DNA from: Caenorhabditis elegans
Lineage: Eukaryota > Nematoda > Chromadorea > Rhabditida > Rhabditidae
Direction of reading: 5' to 3'
DNA length: 64,000 nt
NCBI RefSeq assembly: GCF_000002985.6
Contig: NC_003282.8
Coordinates: forward strand, 3,286,001 to 3,350,000
Of the stretch, positions 15,776 to 47,811 are shown piece by piece. The notes below the pieces were generated by a model, which saw nothing but the letters and a program-made list of their open reading frames with translations, did no database searches and had not been told where the DNA came from. The stretch's first letter is position 1. Every line of letters begins with the position of its first letter. The position numbers were made by a program, and so were the translations under genes.

Positions 15776-15941
15776 CACGTGATTTCAGACTGTCTCAATA
15801 CAATTTGATCTACAAAAAATGCGGGAATATTTTTACAGAACAATTGTGACGTCAGTCATGCAAAATCAGATGAGATGCATGCGTCTCAACTTCCGCATTT
15901 TTTGAAGATCAAATCGAAATAAGACCTTCTGACTCCACGTG
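15776..15941. repeat. MITE family B copy (duplicated at 17368-17533)
   Basis: CACGTGATTTCAGACTGTCTC at the left and CTTCTGACTCCACGTG at the right. It lies in the spacer of the tandem unit and was carried along by the duplication. Confidence 0.8.
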
Positions 15942-16356: not shown

Positions 16357-16363
16357 TATAAAA
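16357..16363 (+). promoter_or_regulatory. TATA box, Cys-rich gene 2
   Basis: TATAAAA 59 bases before the ATG at 16416. The promoter matches that of copy 3, not copy 1. Confidence 0.7.
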
Positions 16364-16415
16364 AGCGAATACTTTTACATTAGAACCATCAGCTCTTACA
16401 TTTATCCGTTTCACC

Positions 16416-16892
16416 ATGCAATCCGCCTGCCTCATCGCTCTTCTTGCTCTCGTCGCCGGAGCGTCGGCTCAATGCTTCGAAGGTGGATGCGGAGGAGGAC
16501 CAATCTTCCTTCCACCACCACCATGCTTCGGAGGAAACTGTGGTGGATGTTCGGGTAACAACTGTGGATGCAATGGAAACAACTGTGGACCACAAGTCAC
16601 TGTTGTCCAGGTCCCAAATAACAATAACGGATGCTCATGCAGCCCATGCAATGGACCAATTTGTGCTCCAATGTGCAATAGCTGCCCACCACAGCCGATC
16701 TTCATTCAGCCATCTCAATGCTGCAATAATAACAGTTAGTATTCGTCGCAAGCATGGTTTTTCAAAAAGAGTTTGCTATTTTCAGACTTCTCCTGTTGCC
16801 CATTCCGTTTCCGTCGTCATAACTCTGCTGCTGCTGCCGCTTCAGATGAGATCACCGAAGAGCCAACCACAGCTGCTCCAGCTCAAGAATAG
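16416..16892 (+). CDS. secreted Cys/Gly/Asn-rich protein, tandem copy 2 (chimeric gene)
   Basis: Exons 16416-16734 and 16786-16892, 141 residues, with no difference seen from copy 1 in coding sequence, intron or 3' flank. Its upstream region instead matches copy 3 (CATCGTATAAAAAGCGAATA, then TTTATCCGTTTCACC before the ATG). The switch lies between the ATG and about base 36 of the coding sequence, where all copies agree. This is what unequal crossing-over between copies 1 and 3 would give. Protein features are as for copy 1: signal peptide, Cys-rich body and the FSCC exon. Confidence 0.88.
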
Positions 16893-17948
16893 ATCCCAAC
16901 TTCTAAAAGTTAATTCCCAGTTTTTGTATATAAAGCAACCCATTTTGGTAGATTAATAAATATGAATTAGTCCAAGTATTCTAAAAATTGAAGCTCAATT
17001 CTTCTTTTTCAGAAATTTTATCACAAAACTGAAAGTTTAATGCATTTTAAATCTCGACCCTTAATGCATTTGGGCCGGTCCAATGCCAAGCTTTCAGATC
17101 CATAGCCAATTTGTATACGACTGAAAAAGATTATTCTGAAGCTTGAAATTCGTGAAGCCATGAAGTGTAGGCCCCTTAAACAGAACAATATTTTACAAGG
17201 TTTGGAAGTGGGAAATTCGTTTTATTTAAATTTTGCCTTAGTTTTTGGAAATTCAATATTCATGGATTTTCATAGAAAAATAACTTCCTGAAGTGAGACT
17301 ATTCAAGCCTGAAAAGTTTTCACACTGTTTTTTTAAGGAATTTCGCTGTATTTGGTTGCAACGTCCTCACGTGATTTCAGACTGTCTCAATACAATTTGA
17401 TCTACAAAAAATGCGGGAATATTTTTACAGAACAATTGTGACGTCAGTCATGCAAAATCAGATGAGATGCATGCGTCTCAACTTCCGCATTTTTTGAAGA
17501 TCAAATCGAAATAAGACCTTCTGACTCCACGTGCTTCCTGTCCATCTTTTACAGATACCTGACAAGACTTTGGCATTAATGGAAGAGCTTACTCAGCAGT
17601 TAATTTGTCAAGATTTTTGGCAGGAAGTTGCTCTCCTAAAGAGCGAGTTAATAACGTTTCATTCAGCCACCTTCATTGCTGAAATTGCAAAGTTTTTCTG
17701 AAAAGTGTGACGTCAAATGCGGTCTGGAAGCTTAGAAGCCTAGACGCGTTGGGTTTCAGTATCACTTTGTCAGTTTTTCAGACAATGTTTAGATACAACT
17801 AGTTGCTAATTGGAACTGAACTTGAATAAGTATGTGTAGCGCTACACAAAGTTTGTGTGATTCGCGGCAAAAAAATGCTTGCGGAACTAGAGCAGCGCTC
17901 CGCCTCCAGCTGATAAACATACCGACCTGTCTCCCCCAGGCGGCATCG

Positions 17949-17955
17949 TATAAAA
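17949..17955 (+). promoter_or_regulatory. TATA box, Cys-rich gene 3
   Basis: TATAAAA 59 bases before the ATG at 18008, in the same context as gene 2. Confidence 0.7.
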
Positions 17956-18007
17956 AGCGAATACTTTTACATTAGAACCATCAGCTCTTACATTTATCCG
18001 TTTCACC

Positions 18008-18481
18008 ATGCAATCCGCCTGCCTCATCGCTCTTCTTGCTCTCATCGCCGGAGCGTCGGCTCAATGCTTCGGAGGTGGATGCGGAGGAGGACCAATCTTC
18101 CTTCCACCACCACCATGCTTCGGAGGAAACTGTGGTGGATGTTCGGGTAACAACTGTGGATGCAATGGAAATAACTGTGGACCACAAGTCACTGTAGTCC
18201 AGGTCCCGAATAACAATAACGGATGCTCGTGCAGCCCATGTAACGGACCAGTTTGTGCTCCAATGTGCAATAGCTGCCCACCACAGCCGATCTTCATTCA
18301 GCCATCTCAATGCTGCAATAATAACAGTTAGTATTCGTCGTAAGCATGGTTTTTCAAAAAGAGTTCGCTACTTTCAGACTTCTCGTGCTGCCCATTCCGT
18401 TTCCGTCGTCATAACTCTGCTGCCGCCGCTTCAGCTGAGAACACAGAAGAGGCCACCACCGCTGCTCCAACCCAAGAGTAA
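18008..18481 (+). CDS. secreted Cys/Gly/Asn-rich protein, tandem copy 3
   Basis: Exons 18008-18326 and 18378-18481, 140 residues. Nearly identical to copies 1 and 2 in exon 1 (Val13 to Ile, CFEGG to CFGGG, GPICAP to GPVCAP), but exon 2 diverges more (fewer alanines, ENTEEATTAAPTQE tail). The signal peptide, cysteine spacing and phase-1 intron before NFSCC are kept. AATAAA is at 18548. Its 5' flank is shared with copy 2, so both should be expressed alike. Confidence 0.88.
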
Positions 18482-18805
18482 ATCTCTACGATCGTCTGAT
18501 TACTTGATCCAATTTTTGTATATACGAAACCTAGATTTATACGTAATAATAAACACGTTTGAATTTATATTTTATTTCTGAACAGTTAGGTGGTTCCTGT
18601 GGCATAACAGAAAGTTGGTAATGGAGAAACAAGACTAGACTTTTTCCACAATACTTCTTTTTCAAGCAAACGGTTCTTCGGACGTTGTAGTCAAACAGGA
18701 AGATGAGATCAGCGAAAAACCAGATTCAACATACAAACTTCGTTTGATCAGAGCACAAGCTTTGTAGGGGACAATTTAAAATGTCGCCCTAAAATTTATG
18801 CCTAT

Positions 18806-18977
18806 AAGTTGCGTAGCAGGCACTACAGGCTGATCTACAAAAACCGCGGGAACTTTTTCCCCAGAAAAATGTGAAGTTTAAACATGCGAAATCAGTTGAT
18901 AAGTCTGCGTCTAAATTCCCGCAATTTTCGTAGATCTACGTAGATCAAACCGAAATGGGATAGCCTGACACCACGTG
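18806..18977. repeat. MITE family B copy
   Basis: Ends GCCTGACACCACGTG and carries CGTAGATCTACGTAGATC. The left end is degenerate. Confidence 0.75.
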
Positions 18978-19309
18978 CGGACGCACACTTTTTGTCACTT
19001 GGCCTAGAAAAAGCGAAACCTCGGCCAATCTGTCTACAGAACAGGTGCAACTCAGCAATACGCTCAATATTAAATGTCTTTCATCATTTTCTCAGCAAAT
19101 TTTCATAAGTTTTCCAAATGGAGCGCACTTCTATCGGGTGGAAGTTTAAATATTTTTCTGAAATTTTATACACTTCAATTTCTGAGAGATTCTTGTTAAT
19201 TTTACATGTGATCGGTGGGAGATATGAAATTTTGAAACATTTTCCAGTCGAGAAGCGTGAAGGCGTTTTCCGGGCGAAAATTGGGGAAGCGCTTGGAGAA
19301 TAGTCGTTT

Positions 19310-19535
19310 CGCTCACGGGATTCTGGCCTTCCTCACTGAATTTTTCGCGCTCCATTGACAATTGCCCGCCGGAAAACGCGTGGAAAAGTGTCGTGTACTC
19401 CACACGGACAAATACATTTAGTTTTCAACTGAAATCGAGCCGCAACGCGCCGTAAAACTACCCCAGACAAGCCCGAGCCAAAATGGCCTAGTTCGGCAAA
19501 CTCTTCCATTTCAATTTATGAGCGAAGCCAGAAAT
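19310..19535 (+). repeat. dispersed repeat, family A
   Basis: Extended copy with GCGCTCCATTGACAATTGCC, GTGTACTCCACACGGAC, AATGGCCTAGTTCGGCAAAC and a TTTATGAGCGAAGCCAGAA end. Confidence 0.75.
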
Positions 19536-19835
19536 CCGTGTTCGCCTGATAGAAAATTTTTATAAAAATGATAAGAACTTCCCAAATTCCATTCAAAAAA
19601 CTAGTCGTGGTATCAAGTTTACCCTATCATGGCAAATCTTTATGCATGATCAAAAAGAGCATCCAGTTTTGTTGCTCAAAAGTGTGCAAGGTCGGTCACA
19701 AAACTGAGCACGTCCTACGGATCGCACAGTTTATGACTTTCAATGGGGATGCAACAACCCGACACACCGCCCACTTCCGTTGATTCAGGCTCCAACTAGA
19801 TCAGGAAAAGGAGCTGGCGATGCTTGATGGGGTGC

Positions 19836-19842
19836 TATAAAA
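19836..19842 (+). promoter_or_regulatory. TATA box, Cys-rich gene 4
   Basis: TATAAAA 62 bases before the ATG at 19898, in the context GCTATAAAAGAGC. Confidence 0.7.
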
Positions 19843-19897
19843 GAGCTTGAATGTCAATCATAGAGCATCCGCAGTTCCCCAGCTTCACCTTCCAATC

Positions 19898-20541
19898 ATG
19901 AACTCTATCTCCCTCATTGCTCTTCTTGTACTCGTCGCCGGAGCCTCTGCTCAATGCTTCGGAGGTGGTTGTGGAGGAGGATGCTTCGGAGGAAACTGTG
20001 GTGGATGTTCGGGTAACAACTGTGGATGCAATGGAAATAACTGTGGACCACAAGTCACTGTAGTCCAGGTCCCGAATAACAATAACGGATGCTCGTGCAA
20101 CCCATGCAACGGGGGAGGATGTGCTCCAAGATGCAGCTACTGCCCAAATAACTTTGGGTACTCTTCGTGTTGCAATAGCAATAGTAAGTCGTCTTTGGCA
20201 AATTTGTTTAAAATAATACTCCAGTAGAGCAAAAACGTATTGAAAATCGGAGTAAACATTCTCAAAAATTTTTATGACAAATTTTAAATTACATTCAAAA
20301 TGTGGCAGTTTCTTCCAGTCCTAATTTGGAAGGCAAAGTTCAGAGAAATATTTTTTCAACAAATTGTTTTAAATTGTAAAAATTGTGTTTTGGATTATTA
20401 CAAGTATATTTAGGTCCACATTTAGGACCACAAATAATCCACAATTAATTATCTAAAATTTCAGACTTCTCCTGCTGTGGCTACCGTTTCCGTCGTAACA
20501 TTGTCAAGGCTATTGAGACTTCCGCCGAGCCAACGAACTAA
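19898..20541 (+). CDS. secreted Cys/Gly/Asn-rich protein, copy 4 (shorter)
   Basis: Exons 19898-20183 and 20465-20541, 120 residues. Signal peptide MNSISLIALLVLVAGASA|Q. It lacks the PIFLPPPP segment of the tandem copies but keeps GGNCGGCSGNNCGCNG and the VTVVQVPNNNNG linker, then a distinct CAPRCSYC block and NFSCCGYRFRRN in exon 2. The intron is 281 bases against 51 in the tandem copies, still phase 1 and at the same site. AATAAA is at 20617-20622. It faces the reverse-strand paralogue just downstream. Confidence 0.85.
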
Positions 20542-20663
20542 ATCTGATTCTGAATTGAATTTTCATAATCCAATCGAAATATTTGTATATTAATGTGCTC
20601 AACTATTAAGTTACCAAATAAAATATTTCATTTTTCGAATCACAATTAAAATAACTATAAGAT

Positions 20664-21563
20664 TTATTTCTTCCTTCCAAAGAATGTCCGACAGCACGAA
20701 AAGTCTGAAATTTGAAATTTAGGTGCTGAAACTCTTGGAGCTAACTTACTTGTGACTGTGCAGCAGGATCTTTGCACAGTTCGGATGATGATCTGGAAAG
20801 GAGGAAATTTTGTGAAAAGTAGGCAGCAGGTAGGCGTAGGTGAGCCTGTATGTTTTTCCTTCTTTCAGAATCATGAAATTACCGTCAATGCAGATTTTTG
20901 TGAAAATTTGATAATATTAGAACTTTTGGGGGTGGGGGTAGGAAACAAGTTTTATGGTTTAAAAAATTTTTTTAATCGAAAAAACTGCCAGGATGTTTGC
21001 ATATCCCAAAAAATATTTTAAATTATTATATTTGCAAACTCTTAAACATCTTCAAAAATTTTTTAAATTGTAAGAAAAGTGTTTTTGGCATCATAAACTG
21101 GACTCCTTCAGTGAGTATTTGAACAACTTTTTTATTTTTTATTTCTTTTTTTCTTTTTTTCGGGCTCGTAGCATAGTTCTCATATTGGGTTTTATAATAA
21201 AATTTTGAAAATATCAAGGTCTCTACGGTATAACTAATTATGGAAACTTTTTGGAAAAATTTCGGAAAAAATTCTGAAAAAAGTTTCCAAAAAACTTTTG
21301 AAAATTTTTAAAAATATTCTCACTGGCGGCGGAGGCGGCGGGGGTAGGTACAAGTACTGAAAAATCACAACTATATATATACTTTTTAGTAGAACTGTGC
21401 CTACCTTCCTATAGCAAGTCACCGTATTACACACAGGCACACAAAACGGCCGAATGCAAGGTCTCGAGAATATTATATTAGTACACAACGGGCCATAACA
21501 CCCCAGAGCCGGAGCACAAGATCCCAAAAATAAAAGAATTAGTAAAAAGAACCTGGTGGTCAT
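20664..21563 (-). CDS. reverse-strand short paralogue of the Cys-rich cluster
   Basis: Predicted from splice signals: exons 21563-21405 (from Met7 of the open frame), 20792-20750 and 20704-20664, phases consistent, about 80 residues. Signal peptide MTTRFFLLILLFLGSCAPA, mature start CYGPLCTNI, a FCVPVCNTVTCY cysteine block, then a 14-codon exon with RSCCTVT and a last exon NFSCCRTFFGRKK. The last intron is phase 1 and precedes FSCC, as in the forward paralogues. A TATAAAA lies at 21602-21596, so transcription should begin about 21570. This favours Met7 over the upstream Met at 21581. The intron of about 610 bases contains low-complexity sequence. The exons are so short that gene finders could miss it. 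Confidence 0.6.
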
Positions 21564-21595
21564 TTGGAGCATAATTTTCAATCAGAAGTTGGCTC

Positions 21596-21602
21596 TTTTA
21601 TA
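21596..21602 (-). promoter_or_regulatory. TATA box of the reverse paralogue
   Basis: TATAAAA on the minus strand in the context TTATTATAAAAGAGCC, similar to the AAAAGAGC context of gene 4. Confidence 0.55.
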
Positions 21603-22810
21603 ATAATCCCCTCATCGTGTTTGTCGAGTACAATAGTTGTTTTGCAGTGAGTGGACACGTCGGAGTTCGCGTACAGCCTGATTTTCCAGTTAGTACAATT
21701 GTAATAGATTGTCGAGTGGGCTTTCAGCTAACTATTATCGTTTGCAAATAATAACGTGTAAGCTCATTGTGCAATAATTGCTCCGTGAGCTTGGAGCAAG
21801 CCTGAGCTTTTAATCAAGACTTGTAATCAAGACCAAATTTTCAATTTTTCCCCAATTTTACAACACTTTTTGCCCATTTTTTTTTCATTTTAATTTTACG
21901 AAATTATTTTCCAAAAAACTGAGCAAAAACTGCTGTCCATTTACAAATCCCAGGTATCGTGTTTGGTGGCCAAATATTGTTTATTTGCCTAAGAATGAAA
22001 GAAACGATGTTTTTCAAACATGCGGACAATAGGCGGTAGGTAGGCATGTAGCCAGGTATGAGGCAGATGCGTACGCCTAGAGAGATTTCCCATATTTTGG
22101 TGCACCTACCTAATGCCTAATGCCTGCCTACCTGATAGCCTAGTACCTGCAAGTTGACAAAAACTGTTTTCATTAACTTTTTGAGAATTCTACTACAAAC
22201 AAAAATAACTAATAATATCTAATGCTTTGGAAGCAATATAAAGGTGTGTAGGCACGAGGCAGGTGTAGGCAGGCAGGCAGGCAGGCAGGCCGGTGATGAA
22301 AAATCCAAATACTAACTATTTCATTTTCATAGCGTTTTTAATATTAATAAAAAAATGTGACAGAAAATTGTCAAACTTTTTAACTGAAAATTGTCAAACT
22401 TTGATAGAAAGTTGTCAGACTTTGACAGAAAATTGTCAAACTTTTTCAGAAAATTATCAGACTTTTTAACAGAAAATTGTCAAACTTTTTAAAAGAAATT
22501 GTCAAAATTTGACAGAAAATTGTCAAACTTTGACAGAAAATTGTCAAACTTTGACAGAAAATTGTCAGACTTTGACAGAAAATTGTCAAACGTCGTCACA
22601 AAGTTGTGACATAAAATTGCCAAACTTTGACAGAAGGCTGTCAAACTTTGAGAGATAATTGTCAAACTTTGACAGAAATTGCCAAAATTTGGTGGTGACC
22701 TACGCTTGACAGGATGTTTGTTTGAATGTTCTTTAAAAATTGTCCCGTCAGGTTCTTCTCTTTTGTTTGCACCTGGGGACACAAATCATGAAAATTAGCC
22801 ATTTCATTTT
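21603..22810. other. intergenic with short tandem repeats
   Basis: 22020-22300 holds AGGCAGG-type repeats, including GGCAGGCAGGCAGGCAGGC. 22375-22690 is an array of TTGACAGAAAATTGTCAAAC units (about 21 bases, partly palindromic). No gene is recognised. Confidence 0.65.
22375..22690. repeat. tandem repeat TTGACAGAAAATTGTCAAAC
   Basis: About 14 degenerate units, each containing TTGACA and TGTCAA, so single strands can fold into many small hairpins. Confidence 0.85.
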
Positions 22811-23260
22811 ATGATCTTCATACTGTCTTTATGTTTTCTTGCTCTCGCGAGCAACAAAATCTTGCTCCAATACTTGCTTAACCTCAGTAAACATTTTTGT
22901 TGTCTGCCAGGCTTGCAACTTTTACAAACAAACCTCACACCCAGACAACAAGTGCTCGGAGAGCCGATCAAGAAACTCCCAGAGAGAGAGAGAGAGAGGA
23001 CTACAAACTTCGAAAGTGGCAGGTTCCCATTGAACTCTCTCTCTCTCTCTCTCAGCGGAGCAAACATTCAACCGTCATTTTGTGACCAATTTTGTGCTCT
23101 CGTGTGCCGCGCGTACGCCGTCCGGATGCCATGGAGCACGGAGATAGATGAATCATCTAAAGGGACTATAAATCACACTTTTGACATGGCACACGATTTT
23201 TGTGCACTGATATTGGAAACATTGGAGGGGTTGATTGACAGACTTGACCAGGATTTTTGA
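22811..23260 (+). CDS. possible small secreted protein with a GA/CT repeat
   Basis: A 149-codon open frame starting with a good signal peptide (MIFILSLCFLALAS). The N-terminal half is leucine-rich. The middle is low complexity from a (GA) run (22980-22998, ERERER) and a (CT) run (23037-23054, SLSLSLS). The C-terminal third reads like genuine protein: FCDQFCALVCRAYAV, a charged turn, and a helix DFCALILETLEGLID. The CT run ends in CAG and could be a splice acceptor with the GA/CT section removed, so the exon structure is uncertain. I do not recognise a family. Confidence 0.4.
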   Translation: MIFILSLCFLALASNKILLQYLLNLSKHFCCLPGLQLLQTNLTPRQQVLGEPIKKLPERERERTTNFESGRFPLNSLSLSLSGANIQPSFCDQFCALVCRAYAVRMPWSTEIDESSKGTINHTFDMAHDFCALILETLEGLIDRLDQDF

Positions 23261-25567
23261 AAATAATTCAAACAGAAATTTGAAAGGTAGAGAAAGGAAT
23301 TTAAGATTTACCAAATATCATAGTAAACATTTTTTGAAATTTTTCAATTACGATTAAAGTCTAAAATTAGGCAAAGCTCAATTTACAACTATCATAATTT
23401 TGGAAGTTGGCAAAAAAAGTTATTTTTGCATTTAGACACAGAACAATCGAAACGCAATTGAAATCTACACCTGCCTGGAAGCAGTTCAAACCTTTGAAAA
23501 TGCTGAAAATTACTCAAAAAATCTAGATTTTTCAAAATTTTTTCCGGAAAATTGGCAAGTTACCGGAATTGAAAATTTCCGGCAAATTGGCAAGTTCCCG
23601 AAATTAAAAAATGCCGGGAAATCGGCAAGTTGCCGGAATTGAAATTTCCGGGAAATCGGCAAGTTACCGAAATTGAAAATTTCCGGCAAATCGGCAAGTT
23701 ACCGGAATTGAAAATTACCGGCAAATCGGCAAGTTACAGGAATTGAAAGCTTCAGGCAAATCGGCAAGTTACAGGAATTGAAAGCTTCAGGCAAATCGGC
23801 AAGTTACAGGAATTGAAAGCTTCAGGCAAATCGGCAAGTTGCCGGAATTGAAAATTTCCGGCAAATCAGCAAGTTACAGAAATTGAAAGCTTCAGGCAAA
23901 TCGGCAAGTTGCCGGAATTGAAAATTTCCGGCAAATCGGCAAGTTACCGAAATTGAAAATTTCCGGCAAATTGGCAAGCTGCCGGAATTGAAAATTACCG
24001 GCAAATCGGCAAGTTACCGGAATTGAAAATTTCCGGCGAATCGGCAAGTTACCGGAATTGAAAATTTCCGGTGAATTGGCAAGTTGCCGAAATTGAAAAT
24101 TTCCGGCGAATCGGCAAGTTACCGAAATTGAAAATTTCCGGCAAATCGGCAAGTTACCGGAATTGAAAATTACCGGCAAATCGGCAAGTTACAGGAATTG
24201 AAAACTTCAGGCAAATCGGCAAGTTACCAGAATTGAAAATTTCCGGCAAATTGACAAGTTACCGGAATTGAAAATTTCCGGCAAATCGGCAAGTTGCCGG
24301 AATTGAAAATTTCCGGGAAATCGGCAAGTTACCGGAATTGAAAGCTTCAGGCTAATCGGCAAGCTGCCGGAATTGAAAATAACCGGCAAATCGGCAAGTT
24401 ACCGAAATTGAAAATTTCCGGGAAATCGGCAAGTTACCGAAATTGAAAATTTCCGGGAAATCGGCAAGTTACCGAAATTGAAGATTTCCGGCAAATCGGC
24501 AAGTTACCGAAATTGAAGATTTCCGGCAAATCGGCAAGTTACCGAAATTGAAAATTTCCGGGAAATCGGCAAGTTACCGAAATTGAAGATTTCCGGCAAA
24601 TCGGCAAGTTACCGAAATTGAAAATTTCCGGCAAATCGGCAAACCGGCACTTTGCCGATTTGCCGGAAAATAAATTTGTAGAACGGTAATTGCCGCCCAC
24701 CCCTGGTGCATCTCTTGTTGCACTTATAAACAAATAGTACAAATTGACCCTCTATCAATCCCAACAATCTCAATGATCGTTATGCTTGAACTTTTTCCCC
24801 TCCGAATTTCGTTACACTTTTCCCTTTGCTTGCTGGTTGATCTTTTCGTTTAGTTAGGCATTTCATTTCATTTAGGCCCTGCTGCCGCTGTGCAAAGGCG
24901 TTTCATTACGTTTTACGGCATGCGCCTTCTTTCTAATAAAGTGTCGGCTTATCTGTCTGCCGAGAGGCTTTTCGAGAACAAAGTGCATTTAAGTGCAGCT
25001 TATCGCCTTTTCCAAATGTTGCATATTCTACGAAAAACTTTTGGTATACTGATAAGGCGATAAGGCGAGTACCGGTGGACGCTACTCGCGCCAAAAGATA
25101 CGAAAACCGAAAAACCATGTTCAGTGCCAAATAATTTAGAACACGTACATAAAAAAGAAGATGAAGCGAAAAATGGACAGATTTCCTTGAAAGCCTTCAA
25201 TTTTTCAGAAAAAAATCGTCTTCTCCGATGACGTGGAATCCTCATCAATCACCTGAACTCTTCTCCTCAAAAGCTGCTGCTGTGTTTTCTTTTCTCTCAC
25301 CTTTTCTCTTCTTTTTTTTTCTATTTTTCGAAACAAAAATCGGAGGACATCACGGCGCACACTCTGCGGTTCCACACCCCGCGCGCTATCTCACCGCACT
25401 GCCTAACCGACCTATCTCTGCGTCTCTCACGCCGGCACGCTCTCTCCGCGCTAAGGCCCGTCACAATCGATAGGCCGCGCTCGCTGTCTAGGCCTTTCAT
25501 TCTTTCACCCACTCGCGTCTCGTCGTTCGACGCGCCTTCGCTTTTTTAAGGCAATTTTTCGACGAAA
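23261..25567. other. intergenic: satellite array, then the bZIP promoter
   Basis: The satellite fills 23535-24672. 24680-25200 is unique AT-rich DNA. 25250-25560 has a long pyrimidine tract followed by CTCTGCGTCTCTCACGC-like sequence typical of worm core promoters. There is no ATG in the last 90 bases before the bZIP start. Confidence 0.65.
23535..24672 (+). repeat. 35-base satellite array (GAAAATTTCCGGCAAATCGGCAAGTTACCGAAATT)
   Basis: About 32 tandem units, with GGCAAATCGGCAAGTTACCG at the core. Internal subgroups (CTTCAGGCAAATCGG) show local amplification. The right end carries AATTGCCGCCCACCCCTGG. The same repeat in the opposite orientation fills 39330-40708, next to the same end word in complement. 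Confidence 0.95.
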
Positions 25568-26925
25568 ATGTGGCCCCCGAATGCAGAGAATAATCACTGC
25601 AATTATAGGTTTGTTTTAAAATGGAAATTTGTAATGGAAATTGAAATTGGAATTGATAAATTTTTAGGAAAGCCGAGAAAAATTTAATTTAAAGATTTTT
25701 CTATTCAATAATTAATAAAATAAATATGCAAATATCGATTTTCGCGAGAATAAAATATTAAAAATGCAATATATTCCATAAAAAATAGTGTTTTAATTAA
25801 AAAATATTCGAAAACCCCTTTTAATTATTGGCTATTTCTCACAATTTATAATATTAGAAGCCGAAAATCGATATTTTTCACAAAAATCAATTTTTTTTTC
25901 ATTGAAATAATATTTTATTCTTATTTTTGCGATTTTTTCAGGTCTTATGCGGAATTTCAGAATTTTAAATTCCAAACTTAACTACAAAAGTCCGCATTTT
26001 CTCGTAAATTGTCGTGCAAGTACGCAAACACCATCAATTAAAAAAAAATTAATTTTTTTTAAAACGTTAAAAAAAAACGTTATAAACCCGTTTTTTGAGT
26101 TTAAATTCCAGGAAAATGGGCTATTTCGAATGTAAAAAGCAAAAATATATTAATATAATTTCAGCTACCATGAGCACGCCGAGCTGAACCCCCACGACCA
26201 CTACCACCACCATCACTACCCGCACTCGTCGGTTCATCACACGGAATGCTATCAGACGCTGTCATGCCCATCGGATCTTCCAGTCGAGACGTCCTACTAC
26301 AATTCTGTGCCACCATCCTATCAAGGTGATCGATTATTTACAATTTTCTGCCAAATCTGTCTTGAATTTTCAAAAACCAATAAATTTCCAGATCTCGGCC
26401 AAACCGATCTCAGCCCTCAATTCTGGTGCGCCGAAGTGGATTGTGTTCACGAACGTTGCTCAACAAAGGAGATTCCACATGAGCAATCGAAGATTTTCGA
26501 GGAAATCTCGAAAGAATGCGATCATATTATGAATAGCGCCGGCGACTGCGAGAAATGTCAAGTAGAGCACGAGAATGGTGCTCAAGAAGCGATTCCGATT
26601 AATGATCTCGTCGATATTGTAATGCAAACTGTCGATAATTTGAAGAAGGAAGGCTCGTCGAATGGTAGTTTTATTCAGGATTAAAATTAAAATTTAATTA
26701 TTAAAATTTCCAGATGAAACCAAGCTTCTATCCCGTAAACGCCAGCAAAACAAAGTTGCGGCCGCCCGTTATCGTGACAAGCAGAAGGCGAAATGGCAGG
26801 ATCTTCTGGATCAGCTCGAAGCCGAGGAGGATCGTAATCAGCGGCTCAAGCTTCAAGCCGGACATCTCGAGAAGGAGGTCGCCGAGATGAGACAGGCCTT
26901 CCTCGCCAAACTTGCCAAAAAATGA
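25568..26925 (+). CDS. bZIP transcription factor, ATF4/CREB2 type
   Basis: Four exons (25568-25608, 26165-26325, 26392-26664, 26714-26925), phases consistent, 228 residues. The N-terminus is histidine/tyrosine-rich (HDHYHHHHYPHSSVHH) and then acidic, with several cysteines (DCEKCQVEH). The C-terminal exon is a bZIP: basic region RKRQQNKVAAARYRDKQKAK with the conserved N-x-x-A-A-x-R core, followed by a leucine zipper (LLDQLEAEEDRNQRLKLQAGHLEKEV). The basic region resembles ATF4 most closely. The likely role is nuclear DNA-binding regulation by dimers. I see no upstream AUG in the presumed 5' leader, unlike classical translationally controlled ATF4 genes. Intron 1 is 556 bases, very AT-rich. 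Confidence 0.88.
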
Positions 26926-27846
26926 TTCTTATATTATTTATGTCTCCAGCCATTTTCCCCCACATACTTGTATATCAGTTCAACGATATTCTCTGGAAAT
27001 TATTAGTAGATCAAGCAACTCGGCAGATTTGGCTACCTGGCGCACACACGTGATGCGCATGGCGCGCGCTCGCAGCTCGCTAGTTATTTGGTATCAAGCG
27101 CCAGACGCGTTCTCTGCGCGCACCAGTTGCATTTCCATTATGTATTATCATTGTTATTTTTATATTAATAAACGAATTTTTAATAATAACACGCGTTTTT
27201 CAATAATCAAATGTGAGATTATACGATTTAGGGAACTTCAGGGCTCTAAAACTTGAAAAAATTGGCCAAAATCGAGAAACATTGCGAAAAACTGTTTAAA
27301 GTATCGATTTTCTTCAATATCAGCAACATACAATTCTTTAAAATGATTATTTTTTGTAAATTCGATAAAAATTAATTTATTTTTCACAATTTCTGCCCGA
27401 AAATTGCCGAAATGACCAGCGTTTCTAGAACTAAAACAAGTGTCGTCAATTAAAATGCCGCGTCCGCAAAATGTCGTACGAAACTTTTCGCTGAGTATCA
27501 AACGTTGAATATTCAGTCAGCCAAATTTTACTACGGTAGAGATTTTACAGCCACGTACGGTTCGCCGGGCCGTGTTAGTGCAATAACAACTTTTCGGAAT
27601 GTGTGTTTGCACGAAAATGGGCGGGGTTTGTTGTTTACGTTGTTTACCGTATTGAAAAGGCGCGGTATTTCAAAAAATAGATTAGCGAGAGTTTTGAAAA
27701 TCACAATTTTCCGATCGAATTTTTCATTCTTACTCAATTTTCTTCGTTCCTTTTTTGTGATAATTCGATATTTTGTGCCATTCTCAGTATTTTAAAGCAA
27801 AATCCCCAACGACGCTACTCCACCTTTAAATGCAAATAATTTTATT
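26926..27846. other. intergenic with repeat fragments
   Basis: 26926-27180 is the 3' UTR (ATTAATAAACG near 27165). 27500-27640 holds TTCGCCGGGCCGTGTTAGTG-type dispersed sequence. 27700-27829 is a half-copy of the TTAA-flanked MITE whose full form is at 29185-29567 (CGACGCTACTCCACCTTTAA). Confidence 0.6.
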
Positions 27847-30757
27847 ATGTTTCAGTTGCATAACCTTCATCACAATGCGAACGGCGACGTCGTCATGTGT
27901 AAAACAGGGCCTAAGGCAATCACGACACAGGATATGATCGAAGACGCAAAGCGCACACACGGAGACAGGCTGAGCTACACCGTCGGTGTGTGAAAATTAC
28001 CTTGCATATGTTGAGAAATATGATTTTCAGCTGATGGAGGAGTACTCGACGTTACTTTCTATAAATCTTTCCCTGAAGCGATCAAGATTTTCTTGAAAAG
28101 TTGCCCTGAAGAATCTCGCGTTACCGAGTGGCGTGATGAAATCGAAGATATTTGCCAAATGGCTCCACAAGCACGAAACACGGCGTGTAAATTGGTACCT
28201 CTGGCCTAGAAAAAAGCTTGAAAAACAAATGTACGCAATTATGAAAATGCGCGTGGTGTTTGCGGACTTGACTACCGTAGTCCACATAAATTTTAGCAAT
28301 TAATACTTCCCGGTTTCGTTTTATATGAAAATATCCTTGAATTCAAGCAAAAAATGCATTATCTTTTTGGAAAAGAATAAAAGAAACACTAAAATTACAT
28401 TAAATTCAAATACAAAGAAAAAGTGAACTACGCAGAAAACGAAGCAAGGCAGTTTGAAGCTGCATTAATGAACAGCAATTTTAAGTGTAAACTTGTGATG
28501 GTGGGTATACATTTTATGTACTTAAATTGTTCAAAAACCTTCATTTAGTCAATTGGTGAAGTTTCAAAAAGAAGAGTTCTTCTTTTAATTATTTAAACAT
28601 TGTTAATTCAGCGAGATGGAAAGTGGAAAACAGGTCTTCTCGGAGTCTTCACGATAGATGAATACAATGGGCGTCTTTCCATTATGAAAGGAGAAGTGCA
28701 CGAAGACGTATGGAAATGGTAAATTCACGACTTCATCCCTCTTCAAAATCGTAACTTTATTATTCAGGTACGACAATAAAAAATCGATGTTCTTCGAAAG
28801 TGCGTCGGCGAAAGCCAAACTGATGGCTGGCCATTTGAGACAATTCTCAACTAATAACATCTCGGAGAATTTCAATCGTGCTATTAAAGTCACAATCGGC
28901 AAGCAACTGACGCTGGACAAACTGATTGTAAAGCTCAACGAGCGATGCGAAGGTGAGAAATACCAAAGTGAGAAAAATTTGAGATTTTCCATTTCAGAAT
29001 CACTCAACGAGTGTTTCTGGAGCACAGTGGGACACTCCGAGTACGTGATCGTGTCAGTTGATCTACAGACTATGTCCATGGACGAAAAACTTCAGTGGTT
29101 TGCCGATGCAGGAATTACTGGAGGAATGCTTCCAGCGTTAGATGTTCCATACCAACTACTGTCAGGTAACACACAATTACAGTTTTAAAGGTGGAGTAGC
29201 GTCGATGGGGAATTTGTTTTAAAATACGCAGAAGGTGCCAAAAGTATAAGTTATAATGAAGAAAGAACGAAAAAATTTCATTAAGTTTGAAAAAAATCGG
29301 ACTGAATATTGCTAATTCTCGCTACCAAATTTGAATGGCCGCTAAAATGAACTTAGAATTTTCTGTTTTTCTGGAAAGCACGAAAAACAACAAATTCAAA
29401 ATTCATTTTGGCGGCAATTCAAAATTGGTAGCGAGAATTAGCAATATTCAGTCCGATTTTTTCAAACTTAATGAAATTTTTTCGTTCTTTTTTCATTATA
29501 ACTTATCCTTTTGGCACCTTCTGCGTATTTTAAAACAAATTCCCCATCGACGCTACTCCACCTTTAAGTCAAAATAGGTTCCCGTTTGTAGAAGTCAACT
29601 TGGAACGAAGCCGTCAAGAAGCGGAGCCCAGTGGAGAAATCGACATTTATCAACGCGACACAGACATTTTCAATCTCCGAGATGACTCAGGTACCGGCCC
29701 AAAATATGCATCGGTGGAGCTCACGCAGGGAATGCTGATCTGCAACAAATGTAACTCTGAAAAGCTGGATTTTATTTGCCGCCATGTGTAAGTGTAGTCT
29801 TCAAGTCTCCAAGAACATAAACAATTTTAGCTTGCGCTGTCTGAAGGATCTTTCTGACACGGATAGAATGATTCAATGGCATAAAATGCTTACTTTTATC
29901 AAAAAGCAGAAGAAAGAGGAAGCTCTTCAATCACAAGGACCCAGAATCGACCCAAAAAGTGGAATGAAGCTGTCCGACAGAATTGGAAAGAAGAATTCCG
30001 CCAACAACCGGAAAAGAAAAATGGTTGAAGTTTCCACGTACGTTTCTCCCAGTCATTCGTGAATTTTTAATACGCGAATTACAGGTTGACAGTATACAAG
30101 GATGACCCGAAATCAAACGGCCAAGACGATTCCGCTAACTCAAGAACTACACTCACCGAGAGCGAAAACGAAGTGAATTTTGACAATGAAACCACTTCGC
30201 TGTTCTCGCCTCAAAGCACATTCACGCCTATTTTTTCGTCAACGCGCCTCGAAGAGAGGCAACTTGTGGAAAGGGAGCTCAAGGACAACCATGCCGAAGA
30301 GAATCAACTCGACGCTGACAAGGCCGACGAGAGCCAGCTCAACGACAGTCGAAGGTCGGCTAGAAATCGGTAAGTCGATCACACATTGTTTTCTTCTTTA
30401 ACTCTTACGTTTAGTACCAGTTCAACAATTTTCGACCCGTCGCCAACTCAACCAAACGATGATTTCGAAATGTCTCCGAGCCATAGACTATTGCGTTTTG
30501 ACGAAATCATTGATCTGTGGGATATCGAACTGTACACCAATACGACTGAGAGCCTCACCTTCCCGGCCACACTGGGAACTGAGAACAATTATTCTGTCAG
30601 ACCTGATACCGGAACTGTGTTGAAAAGCCGCATATTGAAAATTCGCCTCCTCAACGATGATGCTCCAAATGATGTTTTGACAGTCTTCTACAAGACGAAA
30701 GGTGCATTGCGTGAGAAATCATTCAACATTGAGCTTCGAAACGAAGTCGAGCTTTAA
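27847..30757 (+). CDS. large nematode protein of unknown function
   Basis: About ten exons. 27847-27985, 28031 to about 28194, about 28424-28500, 28612-28718, 28768-28952, 28998-29165, 29592-29787, 29831-30037, 30085-30369 and 30415-30757 read in frame, except that the junction near 28190-28425 is uncertain (the acceptor is weak). About 620 residues. The N-terminal half is mixed alpha/beta (MIEDAKRTHGDRLSYTV, GKWKTGLLGVFTIDEYNG). A CNKCNSEKLDFICRHV segment could be a zinc ribbon. The C-terminal half is charged and acidic, then a beta-rich tail (LTVFYKTKGALREKSF). The ATG at 27847 overlaps a TTTCAG, so an upstream exon is possible. Intron 6 is filled by a MITE. I do not recognise the family. 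Long 3' UTR, AATAAA at 31357. Confidence 0.7.
29185..29567. repeat. palindromic MITE with TTAA ends, in an intron
   Basis: Nearly perfect foldback: TTAAAGGTGGAGTAGCGTCG ... CGACGCTACTCCACCTTTAA, with arms of about 170 bases. It makes up nearly all of the intron between the sixth and seventh exons. A diverged relative lies at 57847-58309 and a half-copy at 27700-27829. Confidence 0.9.
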
Positions 30758-31600
30758 TCATATTTCTGACGAACTTACCGTCATTTTTTTGTTGTTGTTT
30801 TGACCCAATTTTTAATTAATCTGTTTTTTTTCTTTTTGTTAAGCATGTTGTAGATTTCTCAAGTTGTTAAGTTCTTAACCGAGTTTTAGTTCCATTAATT
30901 ATATTCATTCCCAGTGTTTTTTTCGAGACGGTTCAAAAAGCCTTTAGCATTATACCGGTATTTCACAACGCCATCTCCCCATTCCTTTGACATTCAATTT
31001 TAAAATTCCCCACTCAATCTTTCATTCGAAAATTAAGAACTGTTCCAACTATAGTTTGTTTTTTTTGTTTTATTGTTAAAGGCAGTTCTTTGTTTTTTAT
31101 TGTTCTAGATGTTGTTAGTTTTTTAGATTTTTTGTATTTTTTGATGTTCAGAAAGACAATCTGACTTGTTTTGTTTTCCACCCATAACCATCTCTTTAAT
31201 TTTTTGGTTTATCATATTTGTTGATCTCCACATTCCATAATTTACCCGTTTCACTTCACTCATTCCCCTCGTCTTTATGTTTCCTAGTTTTTATCCCCAT
31301 TCATTGTAAGGGTTTTTCTAGATGAATCGGATTAAAAAAAACTCATATTTATAGTAAATAAAGCCAAAAGAGCTCGAAATTTGGTATTGTGCTCTTTTTG
31401 GAGCACGAAATCCGCAGAAAAAAATTTTGCCAGCATAAGAATATTTTTCAAAACGGGCCAATTTTCTTGTATTCTTATGCTGACTTCTTTGTCAGCATAA
31501 GAAGATTTCAATGTACTGGGCGCCAGCATAAGAAGAAACGACAGCATAAGAATAGACAAAAAACCATTGACAGCATAAGAAGACGTCAGCATAAGAATAT
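30758..31600. other. 3' UTR and CAGCATAAG repeat block
   Basis: 30758-31362 is the 3' UTR of the preceding gene. 31420-31600 repeats CAGCATAAGAA words also found in the arms of the foldback element that follows (33470-33560), as if a fragment of the element lies beside it. Confidence 0.6.
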
Positions 31601-32600
31601 GGCAAACACTTTTTGACTACTGGATTTTTGACTACATTGCTTTTTGACTACGAGTGTCTTTTTCGCTACTGACCGAAAAAATAGCTACATTCGCACTTTT
31701 GTCTTTTTGACTACTGAATGTCTTTTTCGCTACTGACTGAAAAAATAGCTACATTCGCACTTTTGTCTTTTTGACTACTGAATGTCTTTTTCGCTACTGA
31801 CTGAAAAATAGCTACTTCAAGAGGACTACATTCGCACTTTTGACTTTTTGACTACCACATAAAAACCAAGACGCGCTCCGACCGACTGGCGTTTTCCAAA
31901 ACTCAAAGATAGTTTGTAGAAGTTATTCATTGAATCATTCAACAAAGTTGCAATAAAAATTGCAGTATCGCAATTTGTGAAAACAATTATTTTTTATTCA
32001 GAACTTTCCATAAGATTCTAAAATAAATTCTTGAAATTTCTCGAACATTCCCGAAGATTCTCGATTTTCACCCAGTCGTAACATTACATTACTATAGCCT
32101 ATATTCCTATGCTGCCATTTCTTATGCTGACGTCTTCCTATGCTGTCAATTTTTTTGTACATTCGTATGCTGTCGTTTCTTCTTATGCTGGCGTATTGGA
32201 GTACATTCGTTCGCGGATTTCCTACAGTCTCTCTTCATCTCCTTAGAAGACAAAAACAGGGCGTTTAGCAAACCACAGTAACGCCACAGTGATCCTACAG
32301 TACATACAGTACCAATACCGTACCACTAAATGCTATAACTACAGTATGCCTACAGGCTACCCTTTCAAAAAGTCCTCCAAATAAGCTTAGCAAAAGGGTC
32401 ACGTGGCGATAAATCACTTTTTCTCAATGATGGATTTTTCGCTACATGTCTTTTTCGCTACTCTTCCCTGCGAGACCCGTCCATCGTGTAGTCCTCTTGA
32501 AGGAAATCATTATGTTTCTTCTGCAATTTTTCCAAAGAGCTCCGCATTTTCGCAATTTCCGCTGTCATTTTTTAAAATTATTCTAATAATTTTTTTAAAA

Positions 32601-33030
32601 TTATTCTAATAATTTTTTTAAAATTATTCTAATAATTTTTTTAGCGGAATAAATCAGTATGGATCCGCCAAAATGGCTCTGCAGCAATGACTGGGAAAAG
32701 ATCATCAACCGAAAGAGGTAAGAGTTTTTCGGAGTTTTCACGATTGTATTCTCATAACGCGGTGCGTGTTTAGTAGTTTCTTGGGTGGCGCTCTTAAACC
32801 AGATATGACCGTCGAATGGCGAAGCATCATTCCCTTTCAATGGAACGCGGACTGTCAGCCTGCTCTGATGCTCAAGTTTCTGGAGAATGTCGGGTGTGAT
32901 TTCATCCGCAGCGACGTAGCTGAAATTTGAAACTACTGAATACAATCGTGAAAACTCCGAAAAACTCTTACCTCTTTCGGTTGATGATCTTTTCCCAGTC
33001 ATTGCTGCAGAGCCATTTTGGCGGATCCAT
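32601..33030 (-). pseudogene. captured host-gene fragment inside the foldback element
   Basis: On the minus strand: exon 33030-32972 (MDPPKWLCSNDWEKIINR), donor GTAAGA, a 52-base intron ending ATTTCAG, then an exon from 32919 that reads SYVAADEITPDILQKLEH and LTVRVPLKGNDASPFDGH before running into the other arm (stop at 32601). The first exon lies in the arm, so a second copy exists at 32659-32717 in the other orientation. The second exon lies mostly in the unique loop. The splice-competent structure says it was taken from genomic DNA, not from mRNA. I do not recognise the parent gene. Confidence 0.6.
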
Positions 33031-33098
33031 ACTGATTTATTCCGTTAAAAAAATTATTAGAATAATTTTAAAAAAATTATTAGAATAATTTAAAAAAA

Positions 33099-33209
33099 AT
33101 GACAGCGGAATTTGCGAAAATGCGGAGCGCTTTGGAAAAATTGCAGAAGAAACATAATGATTTCCTTCAAGAGGACTACACGATGGACGGGTCTCGCAGG
33201 GAAGAGTAG
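33099..33209 (+). pseudogene. 36-codon coiled-coil-like open frame in the element arm
   Basis: Reads MTAEFAKMRSALEKLQKK then HNDFLQEDYTMDGSRREE and stops. The other arm holds a copy (about 32594-32483, minus strand) with a few substitutions (Phe5 to Ile, Ala11 to Ser). The protein-like pattern and the few changes suggest a second captured coding piece. It could be chance. Confidence 0.35.
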
Positions 33210-34012
33210 CGAAAAAGACATGTAGCGAAAAATCCATCATTGAGAAAAAAGTGATTTATCGCCACGTGACCCTTTTGCTAAGCTTATTTGGAGGACTTTT
33301 TGAAAGGTTAGCCTGTAGGCATACTGTAGTTATAGCATTTAGTGGTACGGTATTGGTACTGTATGTACTGTAGGATCACTGTGGCGTTACTATGGTTTGC
33401 TAAACGCCCTGTTTTTGTCTTCTAAGGAGATGAAGAGAGACTGTAGGAAATCCGCGAACGAATGTACTCCAATACGCCAGCATAAGAAGAAACGACAGCA
33501 TACGAATGTACAAAAAAATTGACAGCATAGGAAGACGTCAGCATAAGAAATGGCAGCATAGGAATATAGGCTATAGTAATGTAATGTTACGACTGGGTGA
33601 AAATCGAGAATCTTCGGGAATGTTCGAGAAATTTCAAGAATTTATTTTAGAATCTTATGGAAAGTTCTGAATAAAAAATAATTGTTTTCACAAATTGCGA
33701 TACTGCAATTTTTATTGCAACTTTGTTGAATGATTCAATGAATAACTTCTACAAACTATCTTTGAGTTTTGGAAAACGCCAGTCGGTCGGAGCGCGTCTT
33801 GGTTTTTATGTGGTAGTCAAAAAGTCAAAAGTGCGAATGTAGTCCTCTTGAAGTAGCTATTTTTCAGTCAGTAGCGAAAAAGACATTCAGTAGTCAAAAA
33901 GACAAAAGTGCGAATGTAGCTATTTTTCAGTCAGTAGCGAAAAAGACACTCGTAGTCAAAAAGCAATGTAGTCAAAAATCCAGTAGTCAAAAAGTGTTTG
34001 CCTTCTTTCCAG

Positions 34013-37000
34013 ATGTCGGAGAAATACATCATGTCGTCGAAGGCGTGCGTCTACGTCTTGGGTGGCCAACACAACAAGGCGGCCAACACAGCCGCCTTGT
34101 TCGATTTTGACGGCGTCTACATTCTCGATGGGGGATTCGCCGAAAAAGGCCCAGGATTCGTGGCTCACGTCAGGGACGTCTCTGCCGTGCTGCTCGCCGC
34201 GCCGACGCTTGGTAACCTCGGAACCACGTCTGCTCTGTTGGAACAGGTTTGTAGAAACTTTAATGAAAATTTTGATAATCTACTTTTTTCAGGGAAAACC
34301 GTTGCCGGTGTTCACCAACACGAAGCCGTTCAAGACTGCCAAGCCGGGAAGCAGTGGAGAGATTGCCAAAGCAATTCAAGAAGCGAACTCGAAGCTTCTC
34401 TCCGTTGCATCGCCACTGTTCAACCCGAAATATCCGGCGTATATTCTGGCTGGAGACGTCAAAGACTCCGATGTGATCACAAAGGCGTTGGCAGGAGGAA
34501 ACGAGGCAGAAGTGGGGAAGGCGGCCGCTGAGAATGGAACCATCGCCGTCCTGCTCTGGAGGCCTGCGATGACGGATCAATCGGCGGTCAGAGTGCTTTT
34601 TTCGGGGACGAGCTCACTTGCGAGGATCCAACAATCGCTCGACAAGGCAGCGAAATCACTTCCATTCCTCAACGCGCCCACCGTGAAGTCGAAGGATGCG
34701 TTGTTGGATATTCCTGCTCCTGCCGTTCCACGACCTGTTGCCGGAAAACCATCTACTAGATCTGCATCTACAACCGGCGCCGCAAGAACTCGTCCAGCAG
34801 TCCCTGCAGTCAGTGCCCCCAGAGCGTTGACTTCTTGTGCTCCAGCAGGCCCAGCTTGTCAGACGACTACATGAAGTGCAGCTCCTGCTACCAGAACAGC
34901 CGTTCCACCGAGAGCAACTGCACCACCGATGGCCGCTTCAGCATCGAAGGCTCCGACTAGAGCTCCAATTCCAGCGAGATCTGCACCAGCGCCACCAAGA
35001 GGAGCCCCTGCGAAGGCAGCCAAGGCCGAGCCTATCGCTCAGAAGAAAGTCGCTGGGAAAGTTCAAAGAGCCGCTCCATCGAAGCCTGCTTCGGCGGTCT
35101 CAGCTCTAAAAGCTACAGCTCCAGCTTCGACACCATCGGCTCCAGCTACAGCTCCAGAAGCTTCTCGAAGGGTAAGTTGATTTCTTTCATTCCGATTGGT
35201 AGATCTCTAGTCCTCTGCTTTTTCTTTTTCGCTTAGCAGTGGTGTGTTTCATTTCAGGATCCGAACGACGTCGCCATCGTTCTCGACGACTCGCTGTTTC
35301 CAGAAGATTTCAACCAAGGATCGGCTCCAATGGATATTGTCGTGATTCCACCAACACCGGAACCACCACGTCTTGAGGTGGCTCGAGCCACGCATCCAAA
35401 GGAACCGATAGTTGACGCCGAGGACTTGGCGAAGGTGATAAGAACTTTTGACACAGAAACTGAAAATATATTTCAATTTTTCACTGAATATATCTAGTTT
35501 TTGACGCATTTCTATGTCGTTGATGTCTGTGTAATTAGACTTTTGTATTAATATTGTGGTATTGTCATGGTGAATCGGTATATTTCAGGCTCCACAGGAA
35601 GTCGATGATCTGGCTGACGTCGAAGACGAAATTCCGCCACCAGTTGACGCGTTCAAGAAGCCAGAGCCACGTCCAGAGACGAATGTTGCTGGCGGTTCCG
35701 GGGAAGACAGGATCCCAGAGCCAGTCGATGCTTTCAAGAAGCCGGATCCAGTCGAGCTGGACGATTTCGATCCACTGAAGCCATCACACCCCGACCCATC
35801 TGCACCAGTTGTGCCAAGTGGTCATTTGATCATCGCTACTCCTGATCCAGAGCTCCCGAACATTGTTGCTGCTGTTCCATTCATTCCTCCATCACCAAAG
35901 AGACCAAATGATGGTCTTGTGAAGTTGGATGATGAACTGGAGAAGATTGCTTCTGGGTTTGAGGTAAAATATCCCAAAATTGTTATTTTTCAGCATGCAA
36001 ATGAGCTCCCTTTTCTATCCAAAAAATGCTTGAAATTTTCAAATTTCACTCTCAATTTTCAAAATTATTTAATTTTCAGGAACCACTGATCCCACAAGCT
36101 CCACGTGACGATGGCACTCTTGCCGAATTCAATGAAGATGTGTCCAAATTAGATGCAAAAATTCAGAATCATGCTCTCGAACTTCAGAATCTGGCTCTCA
36201 AACTTCAGAATCTGGCTCTCGAGACGGATGAGTATCAACGAAAGCTGCACTCCAATGTGATTGAGAATGGAGCTGCTGTAAAGTACGAGAAGACTGATCC
36301 AGCATTGGATGCTGTGCTCAATGCATGTGCACAGGAGAGTGAACAGGTAGTTTTATATGTTTAAAAGTTCAGAAAAACCGCTTTCTGTTAGGATTAACCG
36401 ATATTTTGAACGTAAATTGAAAAATTGTGATTTCTATGAGGAACAAAAAAAATGAAAATTTGTACACAAAGGAACAATTTCCAAAAACTCGCATTCTTTA
36501 AAATCATTCCTAACTGATCAAGCCTGATCATGGAGGGAATCTGTGTATTTATTGTTGAAAAAGAATTTCAAGAGTAATTACATGTATTTTCACCGAAAAC
36601 ATTTGAAAATATATTTAATTTCAATGTAAAATTTAATTTTCCAGATCGATGCCTCTCATCCAGAAAATCTCCACATGCCAGCTGCTCCAGGATCCGTCGC
36701 TTCAGCGAAGCCAGTCAAATTCGCGCGTCCATACTATTTCGACGTGGTCACAGTGCCAAGGAACGAGAAATTGGAGACCTCCGTTGAAGCAGACGGTCTG
36801 CAAGAGTTCATCTCAAAGGTGCGCTCGAGAAATGTGATCCTCGCGTCGAAGGAAATCTCCGGAGAGCAGCTGCAGTCGATTCTCAGAGGAAAGCAAACAT
36901 GGTGTGATCGGGCAATCTATCCCATGCTCACATTTCCCATGCACACATTTCCCATGCTGACACTTTCTCCCGTGCATACAAAATTCCCATGCTTACGCCC

Positions 37001-46623: not shown

Positions 46624-46827
46624 CTGTGGATTTTTAAGAAATTGAACGGCCTTCTGAAAATTAGTTAAAAATTATTTTGAACTAAAAATCGGTTTTAAAT
46701 AGGTTCTTCTCGATGAAAAAAATCCAACCTATTTTAAAATGTCGCGCGGAAAATCGAAAAACGAGAATTTTGTTTTTTTCGAATTTCCGATATTTTGAAC
46801 ACACTTAGACTTCACGCGCGCACCTCT

Positions 46828-46900
46828 CGCCCTTTTGGTGCAGTGGTTAAGCGCACGGTCTTCAGATACAGTCATTGCTGGTTCAAATCTGGATAGTTTC
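46828..46900 (+). pseudogene. tRNA-like sequence (degenerate)
   Basis: TGGTGCAGTGGTTAAGCGC fits an A box, and GGTTCAAATCT, 44 bases later, fits a B box. The T stem does not pair properly and I cannot fold a full acceptor stem, so it is a tRNA pseudogene or the head of a tRNA-derived element, not a working tRNA. Confidence 0.35.
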
Positions 46901-47279
46901 GGTTTTCTTTTACATCGGTAAGTGTCCTGATATAAGCTTTCAATGTGTTTTTTGGATCACGAAATTCTCGTGAGAGCTCTTGTCAGCATAAGCGCAGGTC
47001 AGCATAAGCATATTCAAAACGTCAGCATAAGAATATTTCAAAGGTTTCACCATAGGATAGTTGGCAATGAGATTTTGCAATAAAATGTGTATAACTGAAA
47101 TGTTGTTGGCAATAGTGTCAAAAACATTTGGTTTTTTTAGGTTTCAATGTTTTTTTTTCGATTTATGAAAAAAAATCCAAAGGGTACCCCTTACAAAAAT
47201 TTTCTAAATTTTGTTTTGAAAACTTTTCAAAATTTGATCAGATGTTATAGAAAAATGCAATGTTTGTTGTTTATCTAGT

Positions 47280-47760
47280 TTAGATGTTCTGAACGCGAAT
47301 TCAGACTAAAACCTGAGGTATAGTAGAACCTCAAAATTCAAAAAACGCACTCACTTCGGATGCTGATATCTCAGTGTAATAATTTCTTATGACAAAGTGA
47401 TCAACTACAAAGTTGTTTATCTTAATATAAAGTACAATTTTGCAGTTAATCGTTTTTTATCAAAAAATTGGTTGGATGAGATATGAACAGAAAAAGAAGA
47501 AGAAAATACAATCATGAAGGTGCCGAACTTTACACAACTTTATCTCGACCAGCAATTTTTTTGATGAAAAACAATCAACTACAAAGTTGTACTTTAGATT
47601 AAGATAAACAACTTTGTAGTTGATCACTTTGTCATAAAAAAATTTCCCACGGAGATATCAGCATCCGAAGTGACTGCGTTTTTTGAGCTTAGGGATTCTA
47701 CTATACCTCAGGTTTTCGTCTGCAATAGTGTGCAGAACATCCAAACTAGACAAAACCACA
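47280..47760. repeat. inverted repeat (AACTACAAAGTTGT arms)
   Basis: Arms of about 200 bases: CCTGAGGTATAGTAGAA, TCGGATGCTGATATCTC and GTGATCAACTACAAAGTTG on the left, and their complements on the right, with a short spacer near 47530. A foldback MITE. Confidence 0.85.
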
Positions 47761-47811
47761 AACATTGCATTTTTCTATAATCTCTGATCAAAAATATTCA
47801 ATCAATTCTCA

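Follow-up and report, generated by a model that had tools for sequence, protein, structure and literature searches.

A Foldback Element of Caenorhabditis elegans, Probably Derived from the Transposase-Proximal End of a Mutator-like Transposon

An inverted structure found in a 64,000-nucleotide stretch of Caenorhabditis elegans DNA (C4:3286001-3350000; the whole stretch analyzed, hereafter the window) is very probably a foldback element, non-autonomous and derived from a Mutator-like (MULE-type) family of transposons in this nematode. In this derivative, the transposase-proximal end is duplicated in inverted orientation, and a part of exon 2 constitutes the loop. Judged from sequence comparison, the exons inside it belong to the beginning of the transposase-like gene of the element itself.

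Structure of the Foldback Element

The inverted structure is 2402 nt long (31601-34002). It is composed of a left arm (31601..32751), a loop of 186 nt (32752..32937) and a right arm (32938..34002); no strand is assigned to the arms. The arms, 1151 and 1065 nt long, with an internal 64-bp subrepeat, place the element in the foldback type. One block of 682 nt (31741-32422 / 33246-33927) is fully complementary (100%), and the remaining blocks are 88-100% complementary.

The left arm starts with the terminal inverted repeat (TIR; GGCAAACACTTTTTGACTAC...), followed by 64-bp tandem repeats, subterminal DNA, the 5' leader, a copy of exon 1 (32659-32717, + strand) and 34 nt of intron 1. There are 2.8 copies of the 64-bp repeat in the left outer arm and about one unit fewer in the right arm. 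The right arm is the same end in inverted orientation, exon 1 included. On the minus strand, exon 1 of the right arm (59 nt, 33030-32972, ATG...AAGAG) is followed by intron 1 (52 nt, 32971-32920, GTAAGA...TTTCAG) and a part of exon 2, which extends from 32919 to a junction near 32749. Exon 1 is present in each arm together with the initial 34 nt of the intron. Only the loop has the acceptor and exon 2; on the minus strand, it contains the intron's 3' end (to 32920) and 168 nt from the start of exon 2.

The original prediction had described a foldback at this position with a minus-strand exon, a 52-base intron and a second exon inside outer arms of short tandem words. This anatomy is borne out, including the reading frame and the proper donor and acceptor. 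The stem prediction far exceeds what chance gives: on the minus strand, the inner 901 nt have a folding energy of -613.8 kcal/mol, whereas 20 shuffled sequences give -199.5 +/- 6.4 kcal/mol.

Origin of the Exons

The genome (100.3 Mb, 7 contigs) was searched with the two exon peptides. The search gave 16 matches, 14 of them with E up to 1e-3. Among these 14, two belong to a second transposon family, one is at IV 4.73 M and the other 11 belong to the foldback's own family. Of the two weaker matches, one lies in a long element of the foldback's family and the other at I 4.557 M (27%, E 0.2), where a collinear gene was looked for and none was seen. The best matches (94-100%) are all in loci of the foldback's own family. 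Five loci have exon 2 at 96-98%: the window and a second foldback, on II (14.14 M; C2:14144244-14146613), as well as three long elements, at IV 2.908 M, I 13.930 M and V 17.636 M. Across the 170 nt of exon 2 compared, 1 nt separates the window copy from each of the three long copies, and 2 nt separate it from the II foldback. The long elements carry the exons within the end where a multi-exon gene begins.

Homologous multi-exon genes are found at V 14.903 M and V 8.576 M; they are collinear over nearly 4 kb and show 40-43% amino-acid identity to the exons. The second transposon family is represented by the V 14.903 M locus, whose TIR differs (GGCAAATGCTCTTTTACTAC) and whose 9-bp target site duplication (TSD), CAACTTTTA, is perfect. 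As the same exon order is present inside two diverged transposon families, the simplest view is that the gene belongs to the transposons themselves. At IV 4.73 M there is a more distant relative (40% over 45 aa), collinear along part of the gene; no terminal inverted repeats were seen in the 9.9 kb inspected around it, and it could be either a relic or a domesticated copy. Contig C6 contains two more relatives of a central exon (40%).

The exons had originally been attributed to a captured host gene, with the signature of a Pack-MULE. It is true that the inverted repeats enclose a proper donor and acceptor, and that the IV 4.73 M gene, devoid of transposon ends in the inspected region, and the two C6 relatives could be taken for host genes. 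Nevertheless, the check proposed along with that idea, a search of the C. elegans genome with the exon peptides, leads chiefly to transposons: the closest matches and most of the significant ones fall in the foldback's own family, and the further ones include a collinear gene in a second TIR-bounded family. Judged by these closest parents in this genome, the internal sequence does not derive from a non-transposon host gene, and host-gene capture is rejected as highly improbable. Because the closest parent is the transposase-like gene of the same family, the term Pack-MULE is inapplicable. The hairpin part of the original prediction stands, since exon 1 is present in both arms and a transcript would form a long hairpin; the siRNAs, if any, would target the transposon instead of a host gene.

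The Parent Transposon Family

The three long exon-bearing copies measure, between outer TIR tips, 7162 bp (IV 2.90 M), 7142 bp (I 13.93 M) and 7441 bp (V 17.63 M). In a fourth element (V 14.20 M, 5271 bp), the exon part is absent. The genome DNA search scores the best candidates only, and the copy numbers of the family are therefore lower bounds.

TSDs of 9 bp, the length of about 9 bp characteristic of MULEs, are present at four of the seven two-ended loci (L009, L011, L012 and L013, the last being the II foldback), in addition to the CAACTTTTA of the second family. Their sequences are GATTTAAAG, TGTTTTGGA and TCAGATTAC, plus that of the II foldback given below. No TSD was found at the other three two-ended loci (L010, L014 and the window). 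One TIR end each was found at L015 and L017 and none at L016. In the locus L043, the TIR starts near position 3320. At one end of the long element L009, TIR starts are arranged in tandem (773 and 985), and the 9-bp TSD flanks the outer one. L014 (IV 4.186 M) was considered as a third foldback and rejected; it has an 82-nt left TIR and a single long right arm, with no exons.

The joined 581-aa product of a relative had no Pfam MULE match (E up to 1), and a genome search with PF10551 in six frames, without regard to introns, gave no match. The assignment to the superfamily thus rests on the 9-bp TSDs, the long TIRs and protein motifs. These motifs, TNNISENFN, which we take to be an instance of TNNxxExxN, and a presumably SWIM-like CxxC...CxH, were seen by eye; together with the TSD length and the TIRs, they are the reason why the gene is called transposase-like. 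The last reading frame of this gene in L012 (2396-2779, -) shows a weak match to the major sperm protein (MSP) domain (E 0.02-0.03, under the Pfam cut-off). An MSP-like tail on a transposase would be odd.

Formation and Transposition of the Foldback Form

The right arm is 91-100% identical per block to the gene-start end of the long elements, and some blocks of L012 are absent from it. The left arm is the inverse of the right arm and ends within intron 1. At the inversion junction (32749..32751, minus strand), exon 2 (TATGAGAA) continues as intron 1 in reverse complement (GAATACAATCG), and the 3 bp GAA are common to both. Such a junction could have arisen by microhomology-mediated template switching during interrupted gap repair. 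The inverted duplication would then span the TIR, the upstream region, the 5' leader, exon 1 and the start of intron 1, and leave the exon 2 part as the loop.

The II foldback has a junction identical to that in the window, with one base different a few bases upstream. Based on this common loop junction, one event is most likely, and both copies appear to be its descendants. TIRs are present at both copies, and the left TIR tip of the II foldback is mutated (AGGAAACAC). The II foldback is flanked on both sides by AATTAATTG, a 9-bp TSD, which indicates that this copy was inserted by transposition and that the foldback form has moved. The mobilization was presumably performed by transposase supplied in trans and acting through the TIR ends. 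Long perfect palindromes are difficult to assemble, but an assembly artefact is extremely unlikely here, as two loci on different chromosomes have a common junction, private substitutions and different flanks.

Flanking Sequences in the Window

The DNA to the left of the foldback (27578..31600) is not host DNA but a truncated, internally deleted body of a parent-family transposon. Its transposase-like gene is on the + strand, and its blocks are 98.5-99.3% identical to L012. The body ends in CAGCATAAGAAG subterminal repeats, which are fused to the foldback TIR: it runs to ...AAGAATAT, and the foldback TIR follows from its outermost base. Four long elements have other subterminal DNA at this position. 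Inside the body, about 390 nt (28178-28569) have no match in the nine compared loci and replace about 735 nt of the transposon.

On the right, the junction between TIR and host DNA is at 34002/34003. A host splice-acceptor-like sequence, TTCTTTCCAG (34003..34012, +), directly precedes the ATG of a gene which we take to be MAP1-like. Three paralogues of this gene (I 14.846 M, I 10.421 M and III 3.845 M) have upstream DNA homologous among them, and this upstream DNA was sought in 15001-31600 of the window and not found. The copy in the window (34013-34900) has an early stop, and the transposon junction replaces its upstream region.

The 9-mers flanking the window foldback differ (TAAGAATAT on the left, TTCTTTCCA on the right), and the right flank is a host gene. 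A clean nested insertion of the foldback in the transposon body is for these reasons rejected as a full account. Both ends are TIR junctions, each to unrelated DNA: the truncated transposon on the left and the start of the MAP1-like gene on the right. Such junctions are expected from recombination between two foldback insertions, or from deletion. The absence of a TSD in the window is best explained by recombination or deletion after insertion.

Another palindromic repeat is present in the window at 46814-47792. It is 81% self-inverted across ~560 nt and 92% identical over 972 nt to the locus L016 (IV 12.249 M). L016 itself contains a 1.57-kb palindrome at 93% and has the 3' subterminal block of the parent family.

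Sequence Evolution of the Arms

The alignment of the four arms from the two foldback copies contains 1039 ungapped columns. Nineteen columns vary: 15 are private to one arm, and four split the copies, with the arms alike in each. No column (0/1039) shows an arm difference common to both copies. Assuming that the arms started out identical, a substitution found in the two arms of a single copy indicates exchange between these arms or with other family members. It is likely from these substitutions that some gene conversion occurred within the copies. A 63-column gap, corresponding to one repeat unit, splits the arms identically in both copies; this gap argues against complete exchange. All these numbers are small.

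Possible Role in Transposon Silencing

The arms hold the sequence that extends from the TIR tip to intron 1, presumably with the promoter of the transposase gene in it. A transcript that starts at either end, or in a neighbor, would pass through the leader and exon 1, then the loop and finally the complement, generating double-stranded RNA (dsRNA). This dsRNA could seed siRNAs against the parent family. From this anatomy, it is plausible that the foldback silences its parent transposon.

It is slightly more probable than not that the foldback is an inert relic. Such a deletion derivative would be silent, with a hairpin that either is not produced or, once produced, only undergoes ADAR editing, for instance within the outron of the MAP1-like gene. 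The state of the window copy suggests this; on the right, it stops 10 bp short of the ATG of that gene, in place of the missing upstream region, and on the left it is fused to a truncated transposon. On the other hand, the II copy is evidence that the foldback form has moved since its origin, and the 5' leader of the transposase gene is retained in the arms.

A natural hairpin silencer similar to Mu killer of maize, on which Dicer would produce primary siRNAs and RNA-dependent RNA polymerase (RdRP) would make 22G-RNAs that silence the parent transposase gene in trans, is less likely. The anatomy, an inverted partial transposase gene, is as reported for Mu killer (PMC3440606, PMC2563033). A long stem is predicted, and the arms are partly homogenized within copies (four sites versus none). 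Neutral gene conversion, however, also gives such homogenization, and the repeat-unit difference between arms is common to both copies. CEMUDR1, an autonomous DNA transposon of C. elegans, is a reported target of piRNA/22G control (PMC7917558, PMC5554785), and its link to the foldback's family is by name only. CEMUDR1 22G-RNAs are described as lower in prg-1 mutants (PMC7917558), and piRNAs might therefore be enough by themselves. In the case of Mu killer, too, the role of the long hairpin versus shorter antisense RNAs is presented as debated (PMC3440606).

Comparison with Other Systems

Mu killer is reported to be an inverted duplication of the mudrA end of MuDR, whose hairpin RNA and siRNAs silence MuDR (PMC2563033). 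A later study describes mostly shorter antisense transcripts and leaves the share of the hairpin open (PMC3440606). According to these reports, both TIRs of Mu killer come from the transposase-gene end of a MULE, a partial transposase gene is inverted, and a long hairpin can potentially form (PMC3440606, PMC2563033). The foldback has the same combination, the transposase-proximal TIR and the 5' part of the transposase gene in an inverted duplication. It differs from Mu killer in its animal host, in being present at least twice, once with a 9-bp TSD of its own, and in a shorter gene part, with the 59-nt exon 1 in the arms and exon 2 in the loop. Furthermore, its hairpin transcript and silencing are putative.

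Foldback-like Mutator elements with 9-bp duplications are already known in nematodes, as reported for Tm1 of root-knot nematodes (PMC3169594). The Tm1 Mutator/Foldback elements are described as having composite TIRs of variable tandem repeats, 9-bp TSDs, and both transposase-coding and non-coding members (PMC3169594), features they share with the foldback and its family. The motifs in the Tm1 TIRs differ, and an inverted transposase start was not seen for Tm1 in the accessible part of that report (PMC3169594).

Pack-MULEs and Pack-TIRs resemble the foldback in holding exon-intron fragments between TIRs; in the foldback, by contrast, the fragment comes from the element's own gene. A scan of 100 animal reference genomes reportedly found no Pack-MULE; the same work describes the Pack-MULE Ssk-FB4 from populations of flies and lists four Pack-TIRs for the worm reference (PMC8277862). 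The foldback leaves that reported absence of Pack-MULEs in animal reference genomes unchanged.

By its name, CEMUDR1 is a MuDR-type family of C. elegans, as the foldback's parent may be. That the two are the same family is a suspicion from the name only. CEMUDR1 is reported to be derepressed in hrde-1, emb-4 and rpb-9 mutants (PMC7917558, PMC5554785) and expressed in 1- to 8-cell embryos (PMC6873666).

No description of such a hairpin element of C. elegans was found among the matches listed in the open-licence literature, judged mostly by title and the start of the abstract. The foldback Tc4 and the TIR hairpins of Tc1 are also near-perfect inverted repeats in C. elegans, and TIR dsRNA can trigger RNAi. 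Tc4 and Tc1 differ from the foldback in superfamily and TSD. The accessible parts of PMC3213143, PMC13271001, PMC12401492 and PMC8616582 contain nothing on the foldback element.

A bold reading, with a rather small chance of being right, would make the foldback the first Mu killer counterpart from an animal: a mobile element that, by holding the upstream region and first exon of its autonomous partner as an inverted repeat, would act as a spreading RNAi trigger against its own parent, its arms being kept alike via gene conversion. In maize, a rearranged Mutator shows that heritable silencing of a transposon can begin with an inverted duplication that arose by chance. An element of equal structure in C. 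elegans, with at least two copies and a loop exon differing by 1 of 170 nt from the long parents, would make it testable in an animal whether silencing is initiated by hairpin derivatives and only later passes to piRNAs. Should the foldback be inert, it would still be a clean record of the birth of foldback elements from MULEs.
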